Shown here: positions 9,153-51,652 of the stretch, one piece after another
Numbering within the stretch: the first letter of the stretch is position 1
Layout of the letters: the number at the start of each line of letters is the position of its first letter
Assembly: GCA_024398595.1 (NCBI GenBank)
Contig: JAKSIX010000010.1
Location: 1 to 51,652 of the forward strand
DNA from: Bacteroidaceae bacterium
GTDB taxonomy: Bacteria > Bacteroidota > Bacteroidia > Bacteroidales > Bacteroidaceae
Direction: 5' to 3'
DNA: 51,652 nucleotides
Position numbers and translations under genes: made by a program
The notes under the pieces: model-generated
What the model saw: the letters and a program-made list of their open reading frames with translations, nothing else
Told to the model about the DNA's origin: nothing
Databases searched by the model: none

Positions 9153-10694
9153 TCACGAAATCAATGATATTGCCATCCACACATCTGCAACGCAGGCCAT
9201 CCAGATTAAGAATCTTGGCTTACGGCAGACAATCCACACAGAAGCCGCTACAACCATGGCATATATCATCCACACGTCAGTAACGCTGTCTATGGATGTA
9301 TTCATCACCGAACCGGGCGTATCAACTATATACCTCATGGCATCATCAAGGAAATCAACAGCAAATGTTATGACCGCAGCCAGCAGTCTTCCTGCAACCG
9401 GGACAACAGACACCACCGACATCAGCATGGCACAGGCAACTATGATGAACATAACCGGAATGGCGACGATATTGGTTATGAGAAAATATGAAGGCAACGC
9501 ATTGAACACATACGCGACAAGCGGAGCCGTACCGATCTGGGCGGACACCGATACCGTTACAAGATTCCACAGATAAGCGACTACCGGATTTTCAGGCCGT
9601 ACAAGCTGTGAAAGCGACGGTTGCAGGAACAGTATGAAAAAAACAGCCAGAAAAGACAGCTGGAAACCTATATCATACAATCCGTTCGGATCAATGAAAA
9701 GAATCACAACGGCTGCCACAGCCAGACTGTTCAACGGAGAACTGTCCCGTCTCAGGGAACTGCATACGAATGCCACTGAAAACATAATAAGCGAACGTAT
9801 TATGGACAGAGGCGACCCTATCATGACAGCGTATGCCCACATTACCAGAATTATGGCCAATTCCCTCAGCACTCTGCCATACGCAGACATCAGCGAAGGA
9901 ATAATCATAGACAGACAAGCGTAGATAATGCCGACATGAAGTCCTGATACGGCCAGAAGATGACTTGCTCCGGATGCCGAAAAAGCATTGCGCGTATCTT
10001 CATCCAGCCGGGATTTGTCGGCAAGTATTACAGACCTGACCACAGCCAGAGCCTTGTCGCTCAGTCCACATTCCGCATACATCGCGGATATTCTTCCACG
10101 GAGTGCGGCAAGACGATACTTCAATCTGCCACTGTTGTATGAATCCAGTTTTTGCCAATCGGAAGAATTCACCCACAATGTACCGCTTACACCTTTACCG
10201 TACAGATACGAGTCATATCCGGAGTCATCAGACTCTCCAGTGCCATTAACCCTACCGTTAAAGCACAGCACATCACCGGGACGAAGCGTAAACACGGAGT
10301 CATTCTCCGGTACATACAGATATACTTCCGAACCATCAATCTGTCCGTTACAGTCAGCCAGTCTGATTTTCAGGAGGAAACTTCTATTGCGCCCAACCGG
10401 ATATTCCTGCAGCACACCCGCATAAATGCGGCTGTCATCGCCCCAGTCAACATGTACAGACCTGTCGTATTGGCAATAGTCCGTCAAGCCCAATACAAAA
10501 GCCATTGAAAACACACAAATGCCACAAGGCACCGCTGAATGTATCCTCGTAAGGACACAGAGCAAGAGCCATAATGCCAGTGCCACTGCAAGCATCACAG
10601 ACAGCGGAATCCCGCCTATGGACTTCGATACAATTATTCCGCAAATAAATGGGAAAGCCAGCCTTACGGCCGGATAATATGTAAGCCAGTGCAA
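9153..10694 (-). CDS. comEC: ComEC/Rec2 family membrane protein, short form
   Basis: A 513-aa polytopic membrane protein. The N-terminal part (about 1-170) is the OB-fold/DUF4131-type region with two membrane spans; the competence domain with the signature LLAVSGLHVG lies in the middle, followed by many hydrophobic helices. The C-terminal metallo-beta-lactamase-like domain of classical ComEC is missing, as is common in Bacteroidota. The start codon appears to be TTG at 10694, six bases after the rpe stop. No in-frame ATG lies upstream within the open frame, and the nearby ATG at 10699 is in another frame. The likely role is DNA uptake across the inner membrane. Confidence 0.8.
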   Translation of the reverse strand: MHWLTYYPAVRLAFPFICGIIVSKSIGGIPLSVMLAVALALWLLLCVLTRIHSAVPCGICVFSMAFVLGLTDYCQYDRSVHVDWGDDSRIYAGVLQEYPVGRNRSFLLKIRLADCNGQIDGSEVYLYVPENDSVFTLRPGDVLCFNGRVNGTGESDDSGYDSYLYGKGVSGTLWVNSSDWQKLDSYNSGRLKYRLAALRGRISAMYAECGLSDKALAVVRSVILADKSRLDEDTRNAFSASGASHLLAVSGLHVGIIYACLSMIIPSLMSAYGRVLRELAIILVMWAYAVMIGSPLSIIRSLIMFSVAFVCSSLRRDSSPLNSLAVAAVVILFIDPNGLYDIGFQLSFLAVFFILFLQPSLSQLVRPENPVVAYLWNLVTVSVSAQIGTAPLVAYVFNALPSYFLITNIVAIPVMFIIVACAMLMSVVSVVPVAGRLLAAVITFAVDFLDDAMRYIVDTPGSVMNTSIDSVTDVWMIYAMVVAASVWIVCRKPRFLIWMACVADVWMAISLIS

Positions 10695-10699
10695 TTCAT

Positions 10700-11350
10700 C
10701 TATAGATTTTTAAGTCTCCGTATAGCTTCCTCCGGATTGGAACTGCTGAAGACTGTGTTTCCCGATACCAGTACATCGACGCCTGCCTCAACCAGACGTT
10801 TTCCCGTTTCAAAATTTACGCCGCCATCAACTTCTATCAAGGTATTATATCCACCGCGGTCTATCATCTCGCGCAGACGCGCCACTTTTTCTATTGAATG
10901 CTCTATGAATTTCTGCCCGCCGAAGCCCGGATTCACCGTCATCAGCAGCACCATCTGCACATCGCCGAGTATATCCTCCAGCACATTTATCGGAGTGGCA
11001 GGATTAAGTGTGACCGCCGCTTTCATTCCACATCTTCTGATCTCGTATATTGTACGATGCAGATGCGTGCAGGCTTCATAATGGACGTTCAATGACATCG
11101 TACCGAGTGCTGCGAACCGTTCAATGTAATTATCCGGATTAACTATCATCAGATGCACATCCAGCGGCTTACTGCAAAGAGCAACTACTGATTTGAGCAC
11201 AGGAAATCCGAATGAGATATTCGGCACGAATACGCCATCCATGACATCTATGTGAAGCCAATCCGCATCACTGCGGTTTATCATATCCAAATCGCGGTCA
11301 AGATGACCGAAATCGGCCGACAACAATGACGGAGCGACAATAACACCCAT
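10700..11350 (-). CDS. rpe: ribulose-phosphate 3-epimerase
   Basis: A 216-aa TIM-barrel enzyme interconverting ribulose-5-phosphate and xylulose-5-phosphate in the pentose phosphate pathway. The family blocks APSLLSADF, HIDVMDGVFVPN, VNPGFGGQ and EVDGGV are all present, including the metal-binding His and catalytic Asp residues. Length matches the family. It is followed immediately by comEC and preceded by a small ORF and an ECF sigma gene on the same strand. In this organism it would also handle xylulose-5-phosphate made by the arabinose genes at 36-40 kb. Confidence 0.93.
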   Translation of the reverse strand: MGVIVAPSLLSADFGHLDRDLDMINRSDADWLHIDVMDGVFVPNISFGFPVLKSVVALCSKPLDVHLMIVNPDNYIERFAALGTMSLNVHYEACTHLHRTIYEIRRCGMKAAVTLNPATPINVLEDILGDVQMVLLMTVNPGFGGQKFIEHSIEKVARLREMIDRGGYNTLIEVDGGVNFETGKRLVEAGVDVLVSGNTVFSSSNPEEAIRRLKNL

Positions 11351-46235: not shown

Positions 46236-46258
46236 CAGCGTAATCAATTTGCAAAAGG

Positions 46259-46618
46259 ATGAAAAAGCTCACTGACAAGGAATTGGAGATTATGAACGTG
46301 CTCTGGGAGAACGGGGCACTGTCAATGCGTGACTTGGTTGAGAAGTTGCCGCAGCCGCAGCCTCACTTCAATACAGTATCGACTTTCGTACGCCGTCTGG
46401 AGAGAAGCGGGATGGTCATCCACAAGGAACTGGGCGCAAGGTTCTTCCTGTACGAAGCAGCTATGACAAAGGAGAAGTATGCCGAGATGCTGAACCGCGA
46501 CAGCGTGAGCAAGCTCTTTGCCGGTTCTTATATGGACTTCATCTCCTGTCTGGTGGAACAGCAGGAGGTCAGTATCGATGAACTGAAGGAACTGATCCGT
46601 ATGATTGAAGACAAATAA
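46259..46618 (+). CDS. BlaI/MecI/CopY family repressor
   Basis: A 119-aa winged-helix repressor. LTDKELEIMNVLWENGALSMRDLVEKL is the first helices, FNTVSTFVRRLERSGMVIHKE the recognition helix and wing region, and the C-terminal helices dimerise. The M56 gene starts 10 bases downstream. In the classical system the membrane protease triggers cleavage of the repressor; here the pair probably senses an envelope signal, not necessarily beta-lactam. Confidence 0.88.
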   Translation: MKKLTDKELEIMNVLWENGALSMRDLVEKLPQPQPHFNTVSTFVRRLERSGMVIHKELGARFFLYEAAMTKEKYAEMLNRDSVSKLFAGSYMDFISCLVEQQEVSIDELKELIRMIEDK

Positions 46619-46627
46619 TCACGCGCT

Positions 46628-48799
46628 ATGGGCAATGTATTCCTGTTTATACTGATGTGGGCTATGACGCTCATCCTGCTGCTGGCAGTCTATAAGCTCT
46701 GCTTCAGCGGCACCACTCTGCACCGTTTCAACAGGTGCTACCTGCTGGGCGCGACAGTGCTGTCAGCAATCATTCCGCTTACGCATCTGTCCGTACCGCA
46801 GACTGCGGTTGTACCCATTCACGAGACCTATTTCGCTCAGACCCTTCAGGAAGTGACCATTTACGGCAATGCTGCCAGCGCAGCAGAGGCCCTTCAGACG
46901 ACATCCGGATTCTCGTGGGCATGGCTGCTTGTGGGTTGCTGGACAGTATATGTGATTGTCCTGATTACGGGCTGGACACGCTCCATCATCAAGACAAGAC
47001 GGTTTCTGAAAGGCAAAACAATGCACAGACTGGGACACATCCGCGTGGTATCGCACGACGAGCAGTTCGGCCCGTTCAGCTGGATGAACTACATCGTCAT
47101 CTCACGTGCCGAGAGCGGATTCGCACGCCGTGCCAGTATCCGTCACGAGATATCGCACATCAGGCTCGGTCACTACGCTGACCTGGTGTTCCTGCTTGCC
47201 TGTACCATTGTCAACCCGGTATGCTGGCTGATAATGAAGGAAATAAAGATAGTCCACGAATATGAGGCCGATGACGAAGTGATCAACCGTTACGGAATAG
47301 TAGAAAAGGATTACCAGAGACTTTTGATAATGAGAACCGTTGGTGCAGAGGCCTATGCGCTGGCAAGTTCTTTCAATTTGAACATTAAACAACGTATTAT
47401 TATGATGAAGAAAGAAAAGACAATGAAAAGGAGAATGCTGTATCTGCTTGCGGTGATTCCGGCAATAGGACTTATGTCACTGCTCTGCGCGAACAATGCC
47501 AGTGCTGCCGGACTGCAGTCTCAGGAAGCTGTAGAGCAGCAGCCGGCACCTAAGGCCGGAGACATTATAAGCGGTACAGTCACCGATGAGAAAGGCCCTA
47601 TGGCGATGGCATCTGTCAACGAAGTCGATCTTGAAGACCGCATATATGCCAGTGCGCTTACCGATAAGGACGGAGAATACTCGTTCAAACTGGCAGGTGA
47701 GGGACATTTTCTTAAAATCGCCTATGTGGGATACGAGGAAGTGAAGGAGCCCATCCATGCAAGCAATATGGACATAAAGCTCATCAACAGCGAGAATGTG
47801 ATTATGATTTATATTGATGAAGTAATAGCTTATCAGTTCCCTGAGTCCAAAACATCAAAATCCCCCGTTAAAGTCAGCAACGTGCAGGAACTGGGCAAGG
47901 TCATCAGAAAAAGAAAAGTCCGCAAAGCCAGAATTGCTATCGGTGAGAAAGAGAAGATGGAAACATTATCGGCAGTCAAGGACATTCTGCGCGAAAATAA
48001 CTGTCTGAATATTGTGTATCAGTCTGTCTTAGGTACTCCGTTGTATGATGAGATACATCGTGCTATGGGTCAGGAGCCAGAGAAGGACAGTGAAGGCTAT
48101 GCAATCGTAAATGGACGAAGAATCACCAAGGTACTTGTAAACGGAAAGGAGGAAATTCCGGCAGACCTTATAGAAGAGATTTTGGAGATTATGGCAGCAG
48201 AACAGAAGGATATCGAAGAAAAAATAGCAAACGACGAGCCGCTTATGCAGGTGGAGAATATGCCGGGATTCCCCGGTGGCAGTATGGCGATGATGCAGTA
48301 TCTGTCAGGCAATATCAAATATCCGGAGGAGGCCCGCGACAATAACATTCAGGGGCGTGTGCTGATACAGTTTGTCGTTGAGAAGGACGGCAGCATATCC
48401 AATGCGGAAGTCGTCAAAAGCGTGCACGAGCTGCTTGACTCGGAAGCTTTGAGATGCGTTTCCGCAATGCCCGCCTGGACACCGGGAACCCAGCAGGGAA
48501 TGCCGGTTCGTGTCCGCTATACGATTCCTATCAATTTCAAGTTTAAAGATAGCGACTCTGATTTCAAGTCTGTCAGAGTGTCCTATATGAAGGAGATGAA
48601 TGTGGCTCTGTTCAAGTCCTGCAAGACTCCAGCCAATGCCGCAATGACAGTCACGCTTGAGAATCTGGACAATGCCATTGACGATGTGATTAACGGACGC
48701 CGCGAATTCTTCGAGATGGACTATTCGAACTATAGCAGCATCCAGGACGCTCTGGGAAACCACGGCATCGACCGGATAAAGTACTCCGCAGACAAATAA
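46628..48799 (+). CDS. BlaR1-like M56 peptidase fused to carboxypeptidase-regulatory and TonB domains
   Basis: A 723-aa membrane protein. The first 270 residues hold several membrane spans and the M56 metallopeptidase with HEISH (H173, E174, H177) and the downstream zinc Glu in YEADDE (about 213). After another span (about 272-295) comes an extracytoplasmic carboxypeptidase-regulatory-like beta domain (about 309-375, ISGTVTDEKGPMAMASV), a charged stretch, and a TonB C-terminal domain (about 555-640, YPEEARDNNIQGRVLIQFVVEKDGSI...). No penicillin-binding sensor domain is present, so the signal differs from that of BlaR1. Confidence 0.85.
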   Translation: MGNVFLFILMWAMTLILLLAVYKLCFSGTTLHRFNRCYLLGATVLSAIIPLTHLSVPQTAVVPIHETYFAQTLQEVTIYGNAASAAEALQTTSGFSWAWLLVGCWTVYVIVLITGWTRSIIKTRRFLKGKTMHRLGHIRVVSHDEQFGPFSWMNYIVISRAESGFARRASIRHEISHIRLGHYADLVFLLACTIVNPVCWLIMKEIKIVHEYEADDEVINRYGIVEKDYQRLLIMRTVGAEAYALASSFNLNIKQRIIMMKKEKTMKRRMLYLLAVIPAIGLMSLLCANNASAAGLQSQEAVEQQPAPKAGDIISGTVTDEKGPMAMASVNEVDLEDRIYASALTDKDGEYSFKLAGEGHFLKIAYVGYEEVKEPIHASNMDIKLINSENVIMIYIDEVIAYQFPESKTSKSPVKVSNVQELGKVIRKRKVRKARIAIGEKEKMETLSAVKDILRENNCLNIVYQSVLGTPLYDEIHRAMGQEPEKDSEGYAIVNGRRITKVLVNGKEEIPADLIEEILEIMAAEQKDIEEKIANDEPLMQVENMPGFPGGSMAMMQYLSGNIKYPEEARDNNIQGRVLIQFVVEKDGSISNAEVVKSVHELLDSEALRCVSAMPAWTPGTQQGMPVRVRYTIPINFKFKDSDSDFKSVRVSYMKEMNVALFKSCKTPANAAMTVTLENLDNAIDDVINGRREFFEMDYSNYSSIQDALGNHGIDRIKYSADK

Positions 48800-48814
48800 G
48801 GAACTGCTCAACGT

Positions 48815-48846
48815 CTTAGGGATTGCAGTCACCTGCAATCCCTAAG
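48815..48846 (+). terminator. 14-bp terminator stem abutting the IS
   Basis: CTTAGGGATTGCAG (48815-48828) pairs perfectly with 48833-48846 across a 4-base TCAC loop. The last paired base is also the first base of the insertion sequence, and the preceding TAA is its target duplication. The natural 3' flank of the hairpin has therefore been pushed 901 bases away. Confidence 0.65.
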
Positions 48847-49746
48847 AAGCTGTTTAAATTTCAATCGTTAATTTTATTATACATGAGCCGGCAGAAAGCG
48901 AGTTGAACCATCGCCACTCCGGTTTCTGAGTAAAATTCGTAGTCCATGGCAATCCTTCTGAAGTTTTCCAACCACGAGAAAGACCTCTCCACGATCCATC
49001 GCAGGGGAAGAACCGCGAGCTTCTTTGAGGATTCGTCAGGTCTGAGGACGACTTTGAACTCGGCACCGAGTTTTGTCCGGGCATCATCAATGAGTTTCTG
49101 CCCCTTGTATCCTCCGTCTGCAAGAATCTTCTTCAGTCGTGGGAAGTTGCCTCTCATAGAATCTATAACTGTATGAGCACCGACACTGTCATGAATATTC
49201 GCCTCGTGGACAACAACACCCATAGGGAGTCCAAGTGTGTCAACTACAATATGTTCCTTGCGCCCCTTGATCTTCTTGTTGCCGTCAATGCCACGGTCGG
49301 TATCCACGTGATGGGACGACTTGATGCTTCTGGAATCTATGATTCCAAGGCTGGGCGTGTCTTCTCTGCCCATCAAATTCCGGACAATGACATGAAGTTT
49401 ATCCATAAGCTCGTCAAAAACACCTTCAAGCTTCCATTTGTTGAAGTAGTAGAAAACGGTGTTGTAAGGCGGAAAGTCCTTCGGGAGCATCCGCCATTGG
49501 CATCCTGTTTTAACCAAATACATGATTGCATTCATTGTCTCTCTGAGAGGGTATTTTCTTTTGCGATGATACGGATCCAAAATTTTTTCTGTAACTTGCC
49601 ACTGTTCATCAGTGAGGTTAGTTGAATATTGACTCATAACTTGTAATGATTTGGTACTCATAAAGTTACGAAAAATATTTCAATTAACCTACTGATTTTC
49701 AAATAGTTATACGGTTATATAACATTAATAAAATTTAAACAGTTTC
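48846..49746. mobile_element. 901-bp IS5-family insertion sequence
   Basis: The ends are GAAGCTGTTTAAATTT (48846-48861) and, inverted, GAAACTGTTTAAATTT (49731-49746), 15 of 16 identical. Flanks are TAA (48843-48845) and TAA (49747-49749), a 3-base duplication as for IS1031-type members of IS5. It encodes one transposase on the minus strand, apparently intact. Left of it is the blaI/M56 operon terminator; right of it is a broken NVEALA-type gene. Confidence 0.88.
48861..49661 (-). CDS. IS5-family DDE transposase
   Basis: A 266-aa transposase. The N-terminal helix-turn-helix region LTDEQWQVTEKIL...YPLRETMNAIMYLVKTGCQWRMLP is typical, and the catalytic triad is D109 (IIDSRSIK), D182 (LADGGYKG) and E225 (RWIVERSFSWLENFRR). 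The frame is uninterrupted, so the element may still be mobile. An alternative start is ATG 49637. Confidence 0.93.
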   Translation of the reverse strand: MSTKSLQVMSQYSTNLTDEQWQVTEKILDPYHRKRKYPLRETMNAIMYLVKTGCQWRMLPKDFPPYNTVFYYFNKWKLEGVFDELMDKLHVIVRNLMGREDTPSLGIIDSRSIKSSHHVDTDRGIDGNKKIKGRKEHIVVDTLGLPMGVVVHEANIHDSVGAHTVIDSMRGNFPRLKKILADGGYKGQKLIDDARTKLGAEFKVVLRPDESSKKLAVLPLRWIVERSFSWLENFRRIAMDYEFYSETGVAMVQLAFCRLMYNKIND

Positions 49747-49747
49747 T

Positions 49748-49959
49748 AATTCTTCAAATGAACTTATCAAAATCAATGTAGAAGCACTAGTGGCTTCGGA
49801 GAGTGGTGACGTACCAAAGCAATACGACTTATACATGACTACCGAAGATGGGAGTTCGGTTATTGTGGAGAAATTACCATAGGGAATCCGAATTTTACAT
49901 GGTGCTCTAATTGGCTGAAGACTGATATAGATACTAAGCATGATATCTGCTATAAATAA
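49748..49959 (+). pseudogene. broken NVEALA-type peptide gene
   Basis: Directly after the IS an open frame without a start reads NSSNELIKINVEALVASESG..., containing the NVEAL(A) motif that ends the leader of a Bacteroidales family of short Cys-containing peptides. The frame stops at 49880-49882, but the +2 frame then reads FGYCGEITIGNPNFTWC... to a stop at 49957-49959, with three Cys, like the C-terminal half of such peptides. So the gene lacks its 5' half (signal/leader) and seems to have a frameshift near 49850. It lies just ahead of a BF3164-like lipoprotein gene, the usual partner. The family call is from memory of the motif. Confidence 0.6.
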
Positions 49960-49990
49960 ATAAATAATAATGAGATACAAACTGTCATAT

Positions 49991-51094
49991 ATGAACAAAA
50001 GAGAACTGTTGTGTTGTTTTGTAATAAGCATATTCCTATGCTCTTGTTTTTCAAACAAACACTATTCATATAGTGTAAACGAAATTGATTTTGCCAATAG
50101 GGCAGAAACTAGGATAGCAGGAGAAAAGATTGCCATTGACGAGATGGGACTTGATGAGGTTATTGCCATAGACAGTTTCATAATTCTTCTTTCTGGCAAT
50201 CCGGAGGGATATGTTTCCGTATATGATAAGAATACACATGACAGATTGGCACATCTGTGTAAAGAAGGTCGTGCAAAGAATGAGTTTATGCATTGTGTGT
50301 TTCCAACCAAACAAACTTTTTACCGTAACAATGATCTTCTATTACCCATTGTTGACAATACCCAGTTTGTGAAGGAACTGAATATTACTGAGTCTATCAG
50401 GAAGGGTAGTGCCGTTGTAGAAAAAACAGATGAATGCATCTCTGTCATAGATGGTTTTGACATTTTTCTGGACAATGATATTGAGAGAAGATTTGAATAC
50501 AGGGATTGTAAGCATGATCCTGTGATAGAGAATCAATACTTACTACCAGAGTACTATCTGATTTCATCGACAGGCAATAAAGAAAAGATTAATGTCTTTC
50601 CCAAAATGATGGATTTCGAGGATACACAAAGAGCAACTGCATTCTATAGCGGTTGTCTTTATAAACATCCCGAAAGAAATCTTGTTGTTCAGCCGTTCCA
50701 GTATATGGATTATATCCTGTTCTTTGACCTTGATAGCGGAAAAAACTTTGCGATACATCAGCCAGGATCTTTGTCTTTTGATGATATTATTCCAATGAAA
50801 CATGGAAAATCAGTTTACCATTTTTGTGACTGCGCTGTTTCATCCGAATACTTCATTGTCTTGTACAAAGCAGGTGATTATACGTTAAGTTTTGAAGATT
50901 ATTCAAGGGCCAATCCTGAAATAATAGTATATGATTGGGAAGGTAATTATATCAATAGTGCCCAGCTGGACAATGTTGTTCATTCAATTACTTATGATCA
51001 TGAAAGGAAAATTCTGTATGGAATTGATCGGAGATATGACAGTTTGTATTCATTTGATATTGGTAGTTTAGTTCCTAATCAAAATAATGAATAA
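49991..51094 (+). CDS. BF3164-like lipoprotein, six-bladed propeller type
   Basis: A 367-aa predicted lipoprotein (MNKRELLCCFVISIFLCSC, Cys19). The mature part resembles BF3164/TolB-like six-bladed beta-propeller lipoproteins of Bacteroidales: blades such as VIAIDSFIILLSGNPEGYVSVYDKNTHDRL, DYILFFDLDSGK and IIVYDWEGNYINSAQLDNVVHSITYDHERKILYGIDRR. The ATG at 49991 is preferred; an ATG at 49970 would add seven residues before the signal. Base composition is lower in GC than the genes left of the IS. Such genes usually sit beside NVEALA peptide genes; function is unknown. Confidence 0.78.
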   Translation: MNKRELLCCFVISIFLCSCFSNKHYSYSVNEIDFANRAETRIAGEKIAIDEMGLDEVIAIDSFIILLSGNPEGYVSVYDKNTHDRLAHLCKEGRAKNEFMHCVFPTKQTFYRNNDLLLPIVDNTQFVKELNITESIRKGSAVVEKTDECISVIDGFDIFLDNDIERRFEYRDCKHDPVIENQYLLPEYYLISSTGNKEKINVFPKMMDFEDTQRATAFYSGCLYKHPERNLVVQPFQYMDYILFFDLDSGKNFAIHQPGSLSFDDIIPMKHGKSVYHFCDCAVSSEYFIVLYKAGDYTLSFEDYSRANPEIIVYDWEGNYINSAQLDNVVHSITYDHERKILYGIDRRYDSLYSFDIGSLVPNQNNE

Positions 51095-51545
51095 AAATTA
51101 TTTACTGTTGGCAGTACTTGTTATGTTGATGAATTCAAGCTGTATCGATAGTAAAAAACATATGATTAGAAAACTATATGGAAAGACTATTAATCTGACT
51201 TGGATAACAGATTATGTAGGACAGAGCGAGGAGTTTATAGGGAATTCAGATAATTCGTATCTCATAGTCACAAAAATTGACTCTTCTTTTTGCACACCAT
51301 GTACTGTGAATTATCTCAAAGCCGCAGAATTATTTATGGAACAGTTAAACAATGATGATATTGGTTTTATTTGTATCATACAACCAAAATCACTCGTTGA
51401 TTTGGAAAATGACATAAAAAATCTTAATCTATCTAAGTTGTTGCTTGTGCTTGACCAATCAGATATTTATTCCAAAGTAAACCATCTTGAGCAATATAAC
51501 AGTCTGATGTCTTCATTTTTATTGAATCAAGACTGTGGTATATAA
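51087..51545 (+). CDS. thioredoxin-like lipoprotein, probably truncated
   Basis: A 152-aa protein starting inside the end of the propeller gene (8-base overlap). The signal leads to a possible lipobox Cys19 (MNSSC), then IDSSFCTPCTVNYL carries a CxxC (C69, C72) at the start of a helix, as in thioredoxin-fold proteins. The frame ends abruptly after SSFLLNQDCGI, where relatives continue for some 30 residues (last strands and helix of the fold). So the C terminus looks lost; what follows in another frame is a Cys-rich tail (51526-51597). Confidence 0.6.
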   Translation: MNKNYLLLAVLVMLMNSSCIDSKKHMIRKLYGKTINLTWITDYVGQSEEFIGNSDNSYLIVTKIDSSFCTPCTVNYLKAAELFMEQLNNDDIGFICIIQPKSLVDLENDIKNLNLSKLLLVLDQSDIYSKVNHLEQYNSLMSSFLLNQDCGI

Positions 51546-51597
51546 TTGGTGTTGTGATAGTTGTCCTTCAACAACCTATTGTGGTATTGATGATTGA
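51526..51597 (+). pseudogene. Cys-rich tail fragment after the thioredoxin-like gene
   Basis: In the +1 frame relative to the preceding gene, 23 codons open after a TGA and end at 51595-51597. They read ...VVYNWCCDSCPSTTYCGIDD with four Cys, like the C terminus of an NVEALA-type peptide. No start codon is available, so it would be a remnant joined to the truncated gene by deletion. From 51598 to the window end nothing else is recognisable. Confidence 0.35.
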
Positions 51598-51652
51598 TTT
51601 CATTCGTAAAGTAGTTATATGTGAACCACCCCTAGAGGCAGTTCTGTTAAAC

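Follow-up and report, generated by a model that had tools for sequence, protein, structure and literature searches.

A decayed peptide, propeller lipoprotein and CxxC lipoprotein locus in a Bacteroidaceae genome is a piece of a recurrent gene system

We found that the right end of contig JAKSIX010000010.1, from a gut bacterium of the Bacteroidaceae, carries the real but decayed remains of a recurring gene system; the literature searched gave no description of it. The window, which is the whole stretch of 51,652 nucleotides that was analyzed, is the entire contig C2 of the source genome (2.2 Mb, 95 contigs). The locus contains what is left of an NVEALA-type peptide gene, a full-length gene for a propeller-like lipoprotein and an overlapping gene for a thioredoxin-like CxxC lipoprotein. 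Because the start of the peptide gene has been lost, the CxxC gene is truncated and an insertion sequence lies adjacent, the window copy looks dead or dying in this genome and has probably lost its function.

The left edge of the locus is formed by an IS5-type insertion sequence (IS) on the minus strand (positions 48,846 to 49,746), whose transposase ORF (48,861 to 49,661) matched the NCBIfam model transpos_IS5_3 with an E-value of 5.5e-65. The inverted ends of the element are 17 nt long (48,845-48,861 and 49,731-49,747), and reading of the sequence revealed TAA on both sides. A terminator-like hairpin is located at 48,809-48,852, behind a gene for an M56/TonB-domain protein, and the IS fits a clean insertion at this hairpin; the 5' half of the peptide gene would therefore have been lost before the IS arrived. 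The alternative is an IS-adjacent deletion combined with a chance TAA. The DNA to the right of the IS is AT-rich, as the sequence-only reading had stated: the G+C content drops from 0.42-0.54 over positions 46,250-49,499 to 0.30-0.36 (30-36%) from position 49,500 onward.

The first piece to the right of the IS is the peptide remnant, located at 49,748-49,879 on the forward strand. Its frame-1 translation, NSSNELIKINVEALVASESGD... up to the stop, includes ELIKINVEALVASESGD with the KINVEAL motif, and a start codon is absent throughout; the N-terminal signal or leader part is gone, as the window does not include the 5' half. A Cys-containing stretch in another frame of the same strand (49,880-49,959; two Cys, stop at 49,957-49,959) is probably the remainder of the same broken peptide gene. 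The sequence-only reading had described a peptide gene without its 5' half that still shows INVEAL, and had named an NVEALA profile search of 49,748-49,959 as a check. The Pfam NVEALA model (PF14055) failed this check, with an E-value of 0.21 and a score of 11.8 bits against a curated cut-off of 27 bits. A custom profile gave a different result: it was built from 72 distinct peptides of other genomes whose genes precede a propeller or CxxC gene, with the loci of the own genome excluded, and was run against all 1423 six-frame window segments of at least 20 residues. The remnant ranked first of the 1423 segments (E 0.0073; runner-up 0.95), and its match falls at the place predicted by synteny; since the profile peptides had been chosen by an NVEAL-like pattern, the profile is partly the motif itself, but nothing fixed where in the window its best match would fall. 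The description of the broken gene thus holds for the missing start, the motif and the custom-profile match, but not for a Pfam-grade NVEALA match. At the corresponding place in G070, a genome of the same genus, a propeller gene is preceded by a gene for an NVEA-bearing peptide that retains its start. Intact relatives match the NVEALA model, for example the peptide of G147 (E 3.7e-4, below the cut-off). Compared with the NVEALA family, the remnant shares the motif and the position upstream of a propeller lipoprotein and differs in its score below the cut-off and its missing 5' half. To our knowledge, the NVEALA family has no assigned function.

The propeller-like lipoprotein is encoded at 49,970-51,094 on the forward strand. 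The ORF is complete (374 aa, lipobox Cys26), with a second in-frame ATG at 49,994. Residues 194-343 matched the Pfam TolB_like family (PF15869) with an E-value of 3.1e-6 and 27.2 bits, just below the cut-off of 29.2, so that the complete propeller lipoprotein of the earlier reading is borne out in its ORF, lipobox and family resemblance, but at a sub-threshold score. Related propellers in the arrays described below match TolB_like, DUF5128 (PF17170) or DUF4221, and the G070 propeller is 33% identical to that of the window. A sequence search of the PDB returned no relative at an E-value of 1, and the NCBIfam scan returned no match under the name BF3164. We also examined the residues that follow the lipobox. 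An acidic surface-export signature on the propellers was rejected, as the six positions after the lipobox Cys held 0.83 acidic residues compared with 0.86 in other lipoproteins; the values for the transglutaminase-like and CxxC proteins were 0.97 and 1.6, respectively.

The CxxC lipoprotein (51,087-51,545, forward strand; 152 aa, motif CTPC) overlaps the propeller ORF by 8 nt and lacks its C terminus. The window protein ends at FLLNQ..., whereas 14 of 14 aligned relatives run on beyond this point, and a thioredoxin-like fold would be incomplete in it, with the C-terminal strand and helix missing. The lipobox Cys and both CxxC cysteines were invariant in all 15 alignment rows. Upon a phmmer search of the ORFs of the fetched loci, which form a small set, a 199-aa lipoprotein of G070 matched at 9.8e-17, and array-associated CxxC proteins matched at 3e-8 and weaker. 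The thioredoxin models in Pfam and NCBIfam did not match the window protein. We assigned the family as thioredoxin-like because its profile matched StoA (PDB 3erw) with an E-value of 0.0016, the sole other match being an octaheme reductase at 0.28. Of the overlapping thioredoxin-like CxxC lipoprotein that had been proposed, the overlap and the CTPC motif are confirmed; its thioredoxin-like character is a putative, family-level assignment from the match to 3erw, and the gene is not intact. ResA and TlpA are thioredoxin-like thiol oxidoreductases, and a cis-proline is usual in such enzymes. The CxxC family resembles StoA, ResA and TlpA in comprising lipoproteins with an invariant CxxC, its profile match being to 3erw, and the window copy differs from them in its truncation and its lack of a thioredoxin-model match; by reading, no clear counterpart of the cis-proline was found in the 15-row family alignment.

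Beyond the CxxC ORF, we read from the sequence a further open stretch, in a third context, that contains four Cys (51,526-51,597, forward strand). We note it as a lead to a second peptide gene, of which it may be the 3' end. It was not among the matches of the custom peptide profile up to an E-value of 20, and with four Cys it lies outside the count of stretches with at least five Cys, which were present in 6 of 1816 tails. The contig ends in a 54-nt exact repeat (51,599-51,652) that is also located at the right end of contig C81 (L135) and the left end of contig C76 (L136). Since the window is a whole contig and its last 54 nt recur at two other contig ends, the locus has also been cut by the assembly. 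In C76 and C81, the repeat directly precedes an ORF start (a TolC-like protein and a small membrane protein). It may represent a promoter region that is shared or invertible, or else the border of a repeat element. A genus-wide element was rejected, as a search over 44 nt that allowed 3 mismatches gave no copy in 36 other genomes of the genus. An Rfam search of the window, C81 and C76 returned one tRNA only.

To place the locus in its family, we surveyed 151 genomes, including the own genome. NVEALA matches were present in 27 genomes and TolB_like matches in 30, with both in 22 (Fisher 2e-15). A TolB_like match was found within 3 kb of the start of 79 of the 128 NVEALA matches, compared with 1.7 expected under uniform placement. 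The CxxC family was present in 26 of the 151 genomes, 20 of which also contained NVEALA, and 44 of the 72 CxxC-family matches were within 5 kb of an NVEALA match, again compared with 1.7 expected. No such neighbour was found at these limits for 28 of the 72 CxxC matches and 49 of the 128 NVEALA matches. The neighbourhood check that had been suggested earlier therefore came out positive, with a grouping of the three families far above chance. The NVEALA model was insensitive in the genus of the window, which appears to be one of ruminant Bacteroidales: the peptide of G147 scored 20.6 bits (E 3.7e-4) and gave no match in the genome survey, and genomes such as G088, G119 and G147 had propeller matches but no NVEALA matches at an E-value of 0.001. 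The association counts are thus lower bounds. Many propellers of the genus had no recognised adjacent peptide, and none was found beside the propeller in any of the five nearest named relatives.

We also mapped 65 stretches, which had been chosen for having matches and are therefore not an unbiased sample, with peptides called by motif. Twelve triads with the order peptide, propeller and CxxC gene were found, from the seven genomes G108, G070, G047, G087, G091, G052 and G147. Eleven were identified on the maps themselves (L056 twice, L062, L076, L077, L082, L083, L084, L085, L089 and L090); in the twelfth, L098, the CxxC gene was recognised separately (E 3e-5, motif CAAC). In some genomes the peptide-propeller unit was repeated, with up to 20 NVEALA matches per genome, many of them 1.4-2 kb apart. 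These arrays consist of tandem units with conserved leaders and divergent tails, and contain genes for CxxC/DUF1573, transglutaminase-like, S26 signal peptidase and O-antigen-ligase-like (O-ligase) proteins within them or nearby. In a Bacteroides fragilis record (S82, L073), two peptide-propeller pairs lie beside a CxxC gene and a transglutaminase-like gene. The number of Cys after the motif was even in 57 of the 72 peptides, two of which had zero Cys (binomial p 3e-7, ignoring relatedness).

A separate class of NVEALA peptides has a CxxxGxxxCP....KV-like tail (L048:7856, L051:889, L053:2966, L055:2966, L060:5739 and L054:17443), and a CxxC protein is encoded by the next gene downstream in five of the six, L054 being the exception. 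L057 (G075:C2, 7410-9239) contains five consecutive NVEALA peptides with nearly identical leaders and differing tails, followed by one propeller and RND genes. In L079 (G000:C34), a CxxC-family gene (9957-10874) stands on its own, surrounded by housekeeping genes and away from any recognised peptide or propeller, and a shorter CxxC-family ORF occupies a similar place in L080 (G050:C34, 9305-9562).

A larger run of genes was found in the same-genus contig G147:C2 (L098), where the triad heads a single same-strand run. The peptide is NVEALA-like (Pfam E 3.7e-4, below the cut-off) and the propeller matches DUF5128 at 2e-8; a CxxC protein and then DUF1573 (1e-7) come after the propeller. The run also contains an O-antigen-ligase-like protein (local profile 4.5e-118; Pfam finds no Wzy_C there), an S26 signal peptidase (8e-27), two transglutaminase-like lipoproteins (the one scanned matched Transglut_core at 0.003, below the cut-off), an outer-membrane efflux protein of the TolC type (2e-34), HlyD (6e-15) and the first part of an RND pump, which was recognised by similarity and is cut by the fetched stretch. 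A similar run in G050:C45 comprises an 80-aa peptide-like ORF (by motif only) and O-ligase, S26, transglutaminase-like, TolC, HlyD and RND genes. Pump genes were present at the further NVEALA loci L057, L058 (TolC, HlyD), L060 (HlyD, RND) and L087. Of these genes L065 has only TolC, and L052 has a fragment of RND at its edge. In the genome of the window, two parts of the system survive on other contigs: a second peptide-propeller pair on C56 (NVEALA 24 bits, below the cut-off) and a TG-TG-TolC-HlyD-RND-RND half on C45, with an O-ligase gene about 9 kb away.

In the transglutaminase-like family, one His is invariant over 10 rows and a Cys nearly so. Its relatives were found in 113 of the 151 genomes and O-ligase relatives in 92, and 38 of 53 selected transglutaminase rows were not within 15 kb of an NVEALA match; the genes of both families thus also serve other settings. 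In genomes of the same genus, transglutaminase-like pairs also come after small secreted proteins (about 118-132 aa) that lack NVEALA (L099, 6646-7002; L100, 6500-6898; L102, 11068-11463). One of them matches DUF3244, and they are possibly other clients of the same enzymes. L102 (G119:C21, 1665-11009) additionally encodes four short peptides with GG and Cys pairs, together with a C39 ABC exporter and a thioredoxin-like protein of the AhpC/TSA type; this cluster adjoins a propeller-like gene and the transglutaminase-like pair, which provides a link to a second peptide type. The NVEALA system resembles double-glycine/C39 export systems in its small Cys peptides, dedicated transporter and thioredoxin-like helper. 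It differs from them in that the transporter in L098 is RND/HlyD/TolC and the leader ends in NVEALA or NIEAL rather than GG. Among the scanned proteins of L098 and L062, a subset of their ORFs, neither a GG leader nor a C39 exporter was found, whereas both are present in L102.

A comparable cluster is listed for B. thetaiotaomicron, in tables that give an O-antigen ligase (BT0662), a 6-bladed propeller (BT0664), lepB (BT0667) and an RND adaptor (BT0669) (PMC10434189). At the level of these table entries, the same kinds of genes are present as in the runs described above; the tables report iron-dependent expression for genes of the cluster without a function, and their entries do not mention NVEALA (PMC10434189). 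A literature search that covered few subscription papers and no preprints returned no paper naming NVEALA and, in the same scope, none with DUF4221; BF3164 appeared in one paper, as a table row.

We regard the chances as about even that this locus is a degenerate peptide-propeller-CxxC module from a Bacteroidales peptide system that works as follows. The NVEALA precursor would enter the periplasm via Sec and would be trimmed by a dedicated paralogue of the S26 signal peptidase. Thioredoxin-like lipoproteins with CxxC, of which some carry a DUF1573 domain and others lie beside one, would then form or shuffle the disulfides of the peptide, which transglutaminase-like lipoproteins and the O-antigen-ligase-like membrane protein may modify further before an RND/HlyD/TolC pump exports it. 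Each propeller lipoprotein would pair with the peptide whose gene lies immediately upstream, and would either retain that peptide in the periplasm or shield the producing cell. The scheme is supported by gene content, order and association, by the invariant CxxC, the conserved transglutaminase Cys and His and the mostly even Cys numbers, and by the full same-genus run; we infer the order of the steps, the peptide as pump cargo, glycosylation or crosslinking and the role of the propeller. The earlier proposal of an export or maturation system for small disulfide peptides is strengthened by the run of S26, DUF1573, transglutaminase-like, O-ligase-like and TolC/HlyD/RND genes outside the window, but its mechanism, including an action of the CxxC protein on the peptide disulfides, is still a matter of interpretation. 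Weak co-variation, propellers that often have no recognised peptide, and the broad transglutaminase and O-ligase families speak against a tight one-to-one scheme.

The peptides could also act like bacteriocins on related cells, with the adjacent propeller as the immunity protein and the arrays as collections of such pairs. This reading is compatible with a maturation and export pathway and differs in the purpose of the peptide and the role of the propeller. The tandem units with conserved leaders and divergent tails, reaching 20 matches in a genome, are consistent with it, as are propellers without the acidic surface-export signature and the finding that very alike tails go with alike propellers (0.98/0.98 and 0.84/0.88). 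Overall, however, peptide-propeller co-variation was weak: over 44 pairs, the within-genome Spearman coefficient was 0.115 (p 0.019, 83 comparisons) and the between-genome p was 0.20, and therefore co-evolution is not claimed. Peptide-less propellers are also common in the genus, and PADLOC, a phage-defence library of weak relevance here, found nothing in seven proteins; we consider the bacteriocin-like role possible but rather unlikely. A role in signalling or surface variation, in which secreted peptides are signals or decoys and propellers are sensors or binding proteins, appears considerably less probable. It draws on the same pairing and array data and on the iron-dependent expression in the B. 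thetaiotaomicron tables (PMC10434189), but scans of selected proteins recognised no regulator in the loci, and the propellers, which are predicted to be lipoproteins, lack a surface-export signature. That the three window pieces are unrelated neighbours with a chance INVEAL string is very improbable, and largely contradicted by the neighbourhood counts: despite the weak Pfam match and a remnant without a start that is split over two frames, a profile made from peptides of other genomes picked the remnant as the best segment of the window, at the syntenic place, and the gene order is kept in G070 and elsewhere.

The gene set of which the window keeps a degenerate module is common in relatives of this genome, where it appears to serve the synthesis, maturation and export of small cysteine-rich peptides. 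Their loci make the export and maturation idea concrete and testable. We tentatively propose, with doubt outweighing confidence, a Bacteroidales pathway for gene-encoded Cys-rich peptides in which S26, CxxC/DUF1573, transglutaminase-like and O-ligase-like proteins and an RND rather than an ABC pump would serve interchangeable peptide-propeller cassettes, gathered in arrays of up to about 20 as modular weapons or signals, each with its periplasmic partner. NVEALA, TolB_like, DUF5128, DUF4221 and DUF1573, all Pfam families with no assigned function, are united in one recurring gene set that also includes RND pumps and paralogous signal peptidases, and the 'hypothetical' genes of gut and rumen Bacteroidales would become one pathway that is testable gene by gene.
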